64,000 nt of DNA, taken from NCBI RefSeq assembly GCF_001898315.1, contig NZ_MKTQ01000008.1, forward strand, positions 62,001-126,000, in the 5' to 3' direction. The notes under the pieces are model-generated. The model had not been told where the DNA came from, did not search any database, and was given only the letters and a program-made list of their open reading frames with translations. Within the stretch, counting starts at the first letter, position 1. Every line of letters begins with the position of its first letter. Below, piece by piece: positions 21,040 through 32,988 of this stretch. The translations under genes and the position numbers were made by a program. The DNA is from Microbacterium sp. 70-16 (GTDB lineage: Bacteria; Actinomycetota; Actinomycetes; Actinomycetales; Microbacteriaceae).

Positions 21040-21723
21040 TCATTGCGGGTGCTGAGCAGTCGCCCCAGAGCGACGCGGGGTGGATGCCACGGTCGCCGCA
21101 CCGACCACCCGCGCGCCCGCCGATTCGCATGCCCGCACCGCTTCGCGCAGGGTCGCACCGGTCGTGACGACGTCATCGACGACGAGCACACGGCGCCCGG
21201 AGAGCGCCGTAGAGCGGGCCCGCATGCTGCCCTGCACGTTGCGCTCACGCTCGTCGATTCCGAGGTGGCGCTGGTCGCCGGCACGACCGGTGGCCTGCAG
21301 CAGGCGCTGGGGATGCAGGCCACCGCGGGCGGCGAGGAGCTCGACCACGCGGTACCCGCGCCGGCGCATCGCGGACGGCGAGGTCGGCACCGGCACGACG
21401 ACGACCGGGCCGGGCTCGGCGCCCTGCAGTGCCGCCGCCGCGGCGGCCGCGAGCGCCGGTGCCAGCGCCCGCACGAGCGACGTGCGACCCTCCTCTTTGC
21501 AGGCCCGCAGCGCGCGGGCGGTGACGCCGGAGAACTCGAGCCCGGCCCAGACGGCGAGGCCGCCGACCGACCTGCTCACGACCGTGGGCTGCAACTGCCG
21601 CCGACAGTCGGTGCACAGCGTCGCGTCGGGCGCATCGCACCCCACGCACCAGACCGGGAACACGACGCTGAGCGCGCCGGCGAGCGCCTCACGGACGGGG
21701 GTTCGTGCGTGCGGGGCATCCAT
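21040..21723 (-). CDS. comF: ComF family amidophosphoribosyltransferase-like protein
   Basis: FPVWCVGCDAPDATLCTDCRRQL..RVLVVDDVVTTGATLREAVRACESAGA. Confidence 0.92.
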   Translation of the reverse strand: MDAPHARTPVREALAGALSVVFPVWCVGCDAPDATLCTDCRRQLQPTVVSRSVGGLAVWAGLEFSGVTARALRACKEEGRTSLVRALAPALAAAAAAALQGAEPGPVVVVPVPTSPSAMRRRGYRVVELLAARGGLHPQRLLQATGRAGDQRHLGIDERERNVQGSMRARSTALSGRRVLVVDDVVTTGATLREAVRACESAGARVVGAATVASTPRRSGATAQHPQ

Positions 21724-21863
21724 CGCCCCACGATGCCGCCGGACGGCCCACCGTGGGGCGGCAGACCGCCGATCTGTGGACAGTTTCGCGGATTCGCCGC
21801 CTGGGGAGGAACTGGCGAGCACCGCGATCACCGGGTGGCCCCGGGCTCACCCGCAAGGGAGCG

Positions 21864-27212: not shown

Positions 27213-29937
<2,725 letters not shown>

Positions 29938-29954
29938 GGCATCCACCCTAGCTT

Positions 29955-30006: not shown

Positions 30007-30280
30007 GGTTTGGGGTCGCGTATTGCCGGGTCATGCGCCGCGAGGCGACGACACGCGACCCCAAACTTCCAGCCAGGCGACCTCCCGCGCCGCGAGGCGA
30101 CTTTTGGGGTCACATGTGGTCGCCTCAGGCGCGGCGAGGCGACCGCACGCGACCCCAAACTTCAGGGCAGGCGACCGCACGCGACCCCAAACTTCAGGGC
30201 AGGCGACCACACGCGACCCCAAACATCAAGGCAGACGACAGCACGCGACCCCACACACGAGGGGATGCCCGGGTCAGCGC
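30007..30280. repeat. Left GTTTGGGGTCGCGT/ACGCGACCCCAAAC repeat array
   Basis: 14-bp perfect palindromic arms (30008-30021/30053-30066), then a diverged hairpin and about 3.5 tandem 32-bp units to ..CACGAGGGGATGCCC. Confidence 0.9.
30139..30260. repeat. Contiguous 32-bp tandem repeats GCGACC[G/A]CACGCGACCCCAAACTTCAGGGCAG
   Basis: Units 30139-30170, 30171-30202, 30203-30234, and partial 30235-30260. Confidence 0.92.
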
Positions 30281-31263
30281 ACCGCGCGTCTCGCGAGAGC
30301 TTCGGCAACGAGCGCGACAACGCGGGGATTCTCGCCCCGAATGTGGCGCGAGGTCACGCGGATGACCTCCCAGCCGGCCGCCGCGAGGGCGGCGTACTTG
30401 TCGAGGTCGCGGTTCCACTGCCGGTCACTCGTCGCGTGATGGCGGCCTTCGACCTCGACGATGACGCGTTGCTCGCGATACACCGCGTCGACGATGCCGA
30501 TCAGCCGGCCCGCATCGTCACGGATCTCGACGTCGAGTTCGGGTTCGGGCAGGCCCGCGCGCGCCGTCACGAGGCGGAAGTCTGTCTCCAGCGGCGACAT
30601 GCTGCCCACTCGGATGAGTTCCAGCGCGGCGAGCAGTCGCTCGCGGCCCCGACGCCACGGCACGAGCGCCGCGGCCCGTAGGGCTTCGATGGTCGCCTTC
30701 TGCTGTGCTGGCCGCGGGCGCCCGCGGTCGTCGCGCGGGATGCGCACGATCGCGTCGCCGAGCACGACGAGTGCGTCGACGTCGAGGTGGTCGGCGCACA
30801 GCGCCCACGCCGTGGCGGGATCCGCGACGCGCAGGCCGTCGACCACGCACGTGCGCACCATCCGCGGCGACACCTTCGTGCCGTGGATGCCACGCGCGCG
30901 AGGCGCGTGCCGCGGCGGGTACGCCGCGACCGTCAGAGCTGCCCCCTCCCACCCGGTGCGCAGCGGCAGATCGTGCGCGGCGAGGGCGACCGGGCCGATG
31001 AAGAACGACCCGGCGGGCGCGACGGCCGCGTACGCGCGCGCTCGACGCAGGATTGCGCGGCGGATCCTGCGGTCGAGCTCGAGGGGCTCATCCGGGGCAT
31101 CCGACGCCGCCGTCTCCGGCTCACGCCGCAGACGGGCACCGCGGAACGGCCGCTCGAGATCGCCCGCGCGCAGCCGTCGCGGGCTGACTCCGGCGCAGCG
31201 GGCCTGCGCGCACGCAAAGCCCTCGCCGAGTGACTCGGGCAGGGGGTGCGGTGGCATGGGCAT
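30274..31263 (-). CDS. DUF559 (Vsr-like PD-(D/E)XK fold) endonuclease-domain protein with AbiEi-antitoxin-like N-terminus; ORF open to 31341
   Basis: C-term SPLETDFRLVTARAGLPEPELDVEIRDDAGRLIGIVDAVYREQRVIVEVEGRHHATSDRQWNRDLDKYAALAAAGWEVIRVTSRHI. Confidence 0.85.
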   Translation of the reverse strand: MPMPPHPLPESLGEGFACAQARCAGVSPRRLRAGDLERPFRGARLRREPETAASDAPDEPLELDRRIRRAILRRARAYAAVAPAGSFFIGPVALAAHDLPLRTGWEGAALTVAAYPPRHAPRARGIHGTKVSPRMVRTCVVDGLRVADPATAWALCADHLDVDALVVLGDAIVRIPRDDRGRPRPAQQKATIEALRAAALVPWRRGRERLLAALELIRVGSMSPLETDFRLVTARAGLPEPELDVEIRDDAGRLIGIVDAVYREQRVIVEVEGRHHATSDRQWNRDLDKYAALAAAGWEVIRVTSRHIRGENPRVVALVAEALARRAVR

Positions 31264-31365
31264 CCCCACACCCTGCTCGATCGCAGCGGCGCGCGGCGGG
31301 CCCAGACCCACATCTGTGGACGCCTGGCCAGAATTCCCCATTGTGGAGGAGCCGATGTCGTCGCA

Positions 31366-31481
31366 GGTTTGGGGTCTCGTGCTGTCGGGTCACGCGTCGC
31401 GAGGCGACCACACGCGACCCCAAACTTCAGGGCAGCCGACGACACGCGACCCCAAACACGAGGGGATGCCCCGGACCAGCG
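31366..31481. repeat. Right copy of the GTTTGGGGTC..GACCCCAAAC repeat array
   Basis: 70 bp about 86% identical (manual) to 30007-30076, then one further unit and the same end ACACGAGGGGATGCCC. Confidence 0.9.

Positions 31482-31509: not shown

Positions 31510-32988
<1,479 letters not shown>

Follow-up and report, generated by a model that had tools for sequence, protein, structure and literature searches.

Why should a DUF559 gene be enclosed by two arrays of the same hairpin? DUF559 is a large protein family that is still labelled as of unknown function. One of its members lies between furA and ahcY in the 64,000-nucleotide stretch of Microbacterium sp. 70-16 analyzed here (hereafter the window), with an array of palindromic repeats on each side. 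The first-pass annotation of this DNA proposed a repeat-endonuclease cassette, with the repeats as substrate or operator of the protein or as the ends of a mobile element.

Organization of the DUF559 locus

The features of the locus are collected in Table 1. As initially described, the two arrays lie on either side of the DUF559 gene in identical orientation and end in one and the same closing sequence, CACGAGGGGATGCCC. The repeat consists of an imperfect hairpin of 59 bp, GTTTGGGGTCGCGTGTGGTCGCCTC-N9-GAGGCGACCACACGCGACCCCAAAC, behind which 32-bp right-half units stand in tandem, and CACGAGGGGATGCCC comes last. The 14-mer ACGCGACCCCAAAC, with up to 2 mismatches allowed, occurs 9 times in the window versus 0.79 times expected (0 of 100 shuffles), and the three window hairpins all fold better than shuffled sequence (z from -3.5 to -5.0). 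Rfam gave no match at the gathering threshold, i.e., no known structured RNA was recognized.

Two details of the initial description did not survive. The left array was thought to take in the stop codon of the gene (30274-30276), but it stops 3 bp short of it. The right array was placed where the promoter should be, but 18 bp separate it from a conserved two-box motif further downstream, and this motif is more likely than the array to be the promoter region of the DUF559 gene. As the motif is located upstream of position 31263, it also supports the gene start at that position. The gene is intergenic, between intact furA and ahcY genes.

Table 1. Features of the furA-ahcY region (window positions)
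Feature	Position	Strand	Basis or remark
furA-like gene, left neighbor of the site	29503-29946	-	orthology in relatives
Left array, 59-bp hairpin element 1	30008-30066	+	fold z = -4.8
Left array, 59-bp hairpin element 2, left arm diverged	30102-30160	+	fold z = -5.0
Left array, three tandem 32-bp half-units (right arm + 7-bp linker)	30161-30256	+	repeat search
Left array, closing sequence	30256-30270	+	
DUF559 gene: AbiEi-like N-terminal part, PD-(D/E)XK (Vsr/EDxHD-like) C-terminal domain	30274-31263	-	Pfam, AF2, PDB matches
Conserved two-box upstream motif CTCCMCA-N19-(T)GTCCACA	31315-31348	-	common to other DUF559 genes, recA, comF
Right array, 59-bp hairpin element	31367-31425	+	fold z = -3.5
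Right array, single 32-bp half-unit	31426-31457	+	repeat search
Right array, closing sequence	31457-31471	+	
ahcY, right neighbor of the site	31510-32988	-	orthology in relatives

The DUF559 protein

Pfam PF04480 places the DUF559 domain at the C terminus of the window protein (residues 283-349 of the 355-aa ORF; E = 4.7e-7; 30.1 bits versus a cut-off of 20.6), and NCBIfam returned no family. The AF2 model of the protein is confident (pLDDT 93.8, pTM 0.90), and its most informative PDB matches are the catalytic domain of the homing endonuclease I-Bth0305I (3r3p; TM 0.78), ngo0050 (3hrl; 0.76) and Vsr (1vsr; 0.48). No PDB match reached E <= 0.001, and the fold call rests on fold probability and TM-score. 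Across 55 sequences, residues E226, D244, E270, E272, H276, R285, D286 and R302 do not vary. The domain is thus modeled with a Vsr/homing-endonuclease fold, its catalytic residues are conserved, and a nicking activity is inferred. Family, fold and catalytic residues all agree with the assignment of DUF559 to the Vsr/PD-(D/E)XK group in the first-pass annotation. Similarity to AbiEi was weak and was detected only in relatives of the window protein, namely, in the paralog L188 with PADLOC (E = 0.0028), which gave nothing for the window protein, and in L219 with PF09407 (0.076).

A nuclease of this type might serve in defense or self-recognition against incoming DNA, the hairpins being self marks, decoys or immunity sites. 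PF18741 is named as a restriction-endonuclease-type domain, the weak PADLOC similarity to AbiEi would fit, and the promoter motif is common to recA and comF, which are DNA-handling genes. However, PADLOC found no defense-family match for the window protein, neither a partner methylase nor an AbiEii/DUF1814 toxin lies beside its gene, where furA and ahcY are located, and the 14 hairpin clusters of the genome (see below) are too few to mark all of it. We regard a defense role as very improbable.

The window hairpin is dispersed in the genome

The window hairpin, family F_C8, fulfills the description of a dispersed extragenic palindrome. In the 3.13-Mb genome, the 12-mer GCGACCCCAAAC occurs 46 times and F_C8 sites with at most 3 mismatches number 50, with 0 occurrences in the reversed control in both cases. 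All 20 full-length elements are exactly 59 bp long. On inspection they start with GTTTGGGG, and no GTAG or CGTC tag is present at the palindrome foot. The strict hairpin pattern had no match in 85,462 named genomes, as exact patterns cannot keep up with the fast turnover of the hairpin sequence.

The F_C8 sites are grouped into 14 clusters, 9 of which are found in gaps between convergent genes, compared with 16.6% of all gaps (p = 8e-5). The dispersed clusters are therefore not promoters. This weighs against a role of the hairpins as operator and terminator sites of the DUF559 gene, in which the AbiEi-like domain would autoregulate via the upstream palindrome, transcription would end at the downstream hairpin, and the copies elsewhere would be by-products or form a small regulon. 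In favor of such a role, AbiEi antitoxins autoregulate by binding inverted repeats (PMC7319586), the upstream array adjoins the likely promoter, and the palindromy is conserved. Against it, the copies are expanded in tandem on both sides of the gene, and a terminator does not have to match an operator. Moreover, no T-run follows the hairpins. We consider this explanation unlikely.

Clusters less than 3 kb apart form 4 pairs, versus 0.17 expected (p = 3e-5). One pair flanks the window DUF559 gene, and the others flank a PadR gene with a 455-aa gene, a PadR/FUSC segment, and an oxidoreductase gene. The first of these three segments (L034 5085-7069; C11:91084-93068) is located between murG and murC, and its 455-aa gene has no Pfam match. 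murG and murC are side by side in the relatives G181, G206, G207, G087 and G339, with a gap of roughly 55 to 85 bp, as calculated from sequence matches.

Different DUF559 paralogs are paired with different hairpins

The 7 solitary DUF559 genes of the genome are all bracketed, each by a different sequence, and 2 multi-domain proteins with a related REase domain are not. Within a 928-kb portion of the genome, four different dispersed hairpin families correspond to the DUF559 paralogs C8, C10, C9 and C16. Clusters of each family flank the paralog to which it belongs on either side and also occur elsewhere, and none brackets another paralog. The families comprise 58, 34, 33 and 22 sites, respectively, against 1, 5, 0 and 2 in reversed controls; for three of the four families, only about 30% of the genome was counted. 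The remaining three DUF559 genes, which are divergent (L042, L043 and L044), lie between yet other palindromes of their own, whose dispersal is only suggested, the counts being small or near control. At non-syntenic loci, hairpin similarity followed protein similarity only weakly (Mantel r = 0.08, p = 0.006), which is what a fast-evolving hairpin would give.

The C16 paralog (L211 5992-7086; C16:13090-14184) contains one in-frame TGA in the matched stretch, and its hairpins are still abundant; the gene may be decaying or may start further downstream. An acyl-CoA-synthetase-like gene (C10:184762-186474) lies between hairpins of the C16 family (F_C16), with a flank score of 49.

Bracketing is strongly associated with DUF559 genes

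We scored the sequence shared, in either orientation, between the 500 bp upstream and the 500 bp downstream of a gene, with a threshold score of >= 18. The sample consisted of 84 Microbacterium loci with 6-kb flanks; gene bounds were taken from tblastn, and the helicase-SelT site was left out. The threshold was reached by 48/80 Microbacterium DUF559 genes, as opposed to 3/309 neighboring control genes and 5/315 mismatched pairs of upstream and downstream flanks (MWU, p = 9e-24 and 1e-26). Those p values overstate independence, the loci being related within neighborhoods, and bracketing in 13 of 18 separate gene neighborhoods is the safer figure. The pattern reaches beyond Microbacterium to Leucobacter and an Agrococcus MAG: a second named set that includes them gave 13/28 DUF559 genes versus 0/43 controls. 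Among 532 genes of the source genome, 6 scored >= 25, and 3 of those are DUF559 genes.

DUF559 homologs are present in 335 of 369 Microbacterium genomes. The window repeat occurs in at least 3 copies in all 6 genomes that encode a DUF559 protein >= 58% identical to that of the window, and in 3 of the 363 remaining ones. On a Stenotrophomonas maltophilia contig (L310), a DUF559 gene resembling those of Microbacterium (63% identity) was also found; it is likely a contamination. The association of DUF559 genes with matching flanking hairpins is strong. A repeat common genome-wide without such an association would have refuted the first-pass annotation; the repeat is found genome-wide but not independently of DUF559. 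About 40% of the DUF559 genes have flanks below the similarity threshold, which counts against the explanation that we favor (see below).

Hairpins also flank a few non-DUF559 genes. It may be that they are ordinary REP-like elements spread by other means, gathering where foreign genes land, and that DUF559 is merely a frequent cargo. F_C8 brackets the PadR pair at murG-murC, the PadR/FUSC segment and the oxidoreductase gene, F_C16 flanks the acyl-CoA-synthetase-like gene, and a preference for intergenic sites between convergent genes is typical of REPs. Nevertheless, every DUF559 paralog is found with its own family and not with a random one, neighboring genes in the same regions are bracketed only 1% of the time, and high repeat numbers go with the presence of the matching DUF559 clade. 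In addition, no Y1/RAYT transposase (PF01797, E <= 1) was found in the genome, whereas control genomes gave matches. A cargo role seems to us unlikely.

The furA-ahcY site is polymorphic

The gene and the hairpins are both present at furA-ahcY in G000, G147, G337, G167 and G088. A single BLAST match connects ahcY with the DUF559 gene only in G147 (M. memoriense), G337 and G167 (M. paulum), where a diverged version of the hairpin flanks the gene on both sides. G046 has the gene and the hairpin at this site, with only one side visible as the contig ends at the gene. In five genomes (G117, G075, G339, G087 and G135), ahcY adjoins furA, and both the DUF559 gene and the F_C8-type hairpin are missing. 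This presence/absence polymorphism is what the cassette proposal had predicted. The ahcY-furA gap of G339 contains a different hairpin, GGATGTCCCACTTNCGG..AAAGTGGGACATCC (L119 7229-7374), with no DUF559 gene there. In G013 (L220 7228-7783), the DUF559 gene at furA-ahcY is oppositely oriented and has its own tandem half-units, which suggests repeated insertion or inversion.

The hairpins vary jointly within each species, e.g., GTTCGGGGTCGC in M. paulum and TTTCGGGTCCCG in G147 and G337. In aligned hairpins, 31 cells were changed on both sides of the stem, versus 14.9 (standard deviation, 3.0) in shuffled alignments (0/500) and 8 to 17 cells in slid controls. That F_C8 might be a species-private REP unrelated to DUF559 was ruled out by the bracketed homologs of G147, G337 and G167, together with the positive flank test.

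A two-box motif is shared with recA and comF

The first box of the upstream motif, as TCCTCCMCM, precedes 48/84 DUF559 genes versus 3/309 controls. When the second box, TGTCCAC, is required as well, with the two boxes spanning an almost constant 32 bp, the counts are 23/84 DUF559 genes versus 1/309 controls. With at most 1 mismatch, 928 kb of the source genome contain 10 motif sites, 5 of them at DUF559 genes, including all 4 AbiEi-type paralogs. Four of the other five precede recA, comF, a WXG100 (ESAT-6-like) gene and a small membrane-protein gene (the latter two at C9:291978 and C11:129225), and one has no gene assigned. The comF site is in the window (21775-21808, - strand, upstream of comF at 21040-21723) and exactly matches CTCCMCA-N19-TGTCCACA, the motif that recA and DUF559 genes also have upstream. 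Across the genus, 0 to 7 exact matches to the motif were counted per genome, and the reversed control is almost always zero. Possibly, the motif marks a DNA-damage or competence regulon of Microbacterium. Its distribution suggests that DUF559 genes are controlled together with recombination or DNA-uptake genes.

A putative repeat-nuclease module

The explanation that we favor, and hold to be probable, is that the window contains one copy of a repeat-nuclease module, in which the DUF559 protein would recognize and nick its own hairpin and help the hairpin and the genes that it brackets to spread. Bracketing, paralog-specific pairing, dispersal, conserved palindromy and conserved nuclease residues are observations. 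Recognition, nicking and spread are inferred from the pairing, the dispersal, the palindromes and the nuclease core, and from the behavior of AbiEi- and Vsr-type domains (PMC7319586, PMC12907096). The cassette first proposed is in this sense supported, by the DUF559 association and the polymorphism at furA-ahcY, while binding, cutting and movement remain inferences. Neither target-site duplications nor differences between strains in individual hairpin copies have been demonstrated, and no binding, cleavage or movement has been seen. The weakness of the AbiEi similarity, the weak correlation of hairpin and protein divergence at non-syntenic sites, and the few unrelated genes enclosed by the same hairpins likewise count against our explanation.

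The partners would be a dispersed 59-bp hairpin family and the single DUF559 gene bracketed by it, each paralog having a family of its own. Recognition of the hairpin may fall to the AbiEi-like N-terminal part, its target being either the inverted repeat in double-stranded form or an extruded hairpin of single-stranded DNA, and the Vsr/homing-endonuclease-like C-terminal domain would then make a nick at the hairpin or next to it. In the course of repair or recombination, a copy of the hairpin, and sometimes of the stretch enclosed by two of them, could be placed in a new intergenic site. DUF559 expression is probably tied to that of recA and comF, i.e., to competence or DNA damage, conditions under which RecA and single-stranded DNA would be at hand.

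Whether this can be generalized is, in our judgment, evenly balanced: DUF559 proteins of Microbacteriaceae would be hairpin-specific mobilizing nucleases that spread private repeats and bracketed genes via DNA breaks and recA/comF-linked recombination, with several independent repeat-nuclease lineages per genome. If so, this would account for the scattered hairpins and bracketed gene insertions in these genomes. The paralog-specific pairing also allows a candidate substrate for each DUF559 protein to be read from the genome, and many pairs can be tested together.

Comparison with known systems

No published link of DUF559 to hairpin repeats was found in the open-licence literature. To our knowledge, Vsr-like nucleases and dispersed palindromes are not combined in any system described so far.

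Its parts have known counterparts. AbiEi proteins, the antitoxins of type IV toxin-antitoxin systems, bind inverted repeats (PMC7319586). The likeness to them goes no further than a weak resemblance in N-terminal sequence (in a paralog, PADLOC E = 0.003), and, unlike them, the window protein is fused to a nuclease domain and has no DUF1814/AbiEii toxin adjacent. With Vsr and the EDxHD homing endonucleases (1vsr; I-Bth0305I, 3r3p), the protein shares the predicted C-terminal fold (TM 0.78 to 3r3p) and conserved acidic and His residues. It differs from them in its extra AbiEi-like N-terminal part, and its gene is free-standing, in neither an intron nor an intein, with no paired cytosine methylase at the locus. 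Caulobacter VsrA (CCNA_02930) is likewise a Vsr-like DUF559 protein; in the part of the source available to us, it is studied as a mismatch-repair-type protein with a methylase, and no hairpin repeats are described for it there, unlike the system of the window (PMC12907096).

The closest parallel is with REP/REPIN sequences and their RAYT (TnpA-REP) proteins, in which dispersed extragenic palindromes, often paired or in tandem, are found mostly at gene 3' ends (PMC2817692, PMC3116915, PMC8266576). The analogy drawn by the first-pass annotation holds anatomically, in that the palindromes are dispersed, extragenic, often paired or in tandem and located preferentially at the 3' ends of genes, the nuclease gene is flanked by its own repeat, and the repeat sequence is lineage specific. 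However, RAYT is a Y1 HUH transposase and the DUF559 enzyme belongs to the PD-(D/E)XK Vsr-like group; as the genome has no Y1_Tnp, the module fails the defining feature of REP/RAYT. Also in contrast to REPs, which are 20 to 40 bp long and GTAG/CGTC-tagged, the elements are 59-bp hairpins with tandem 32-bp half-units, and there are several DUF559-hairpin pairs per genome. If mobility is proved, the module would be a convergent analogue of REP/RAYT: its way of life would have a second, unrelated origin, and such repeat-plus-nuclease symbioses would have arisen more than once.
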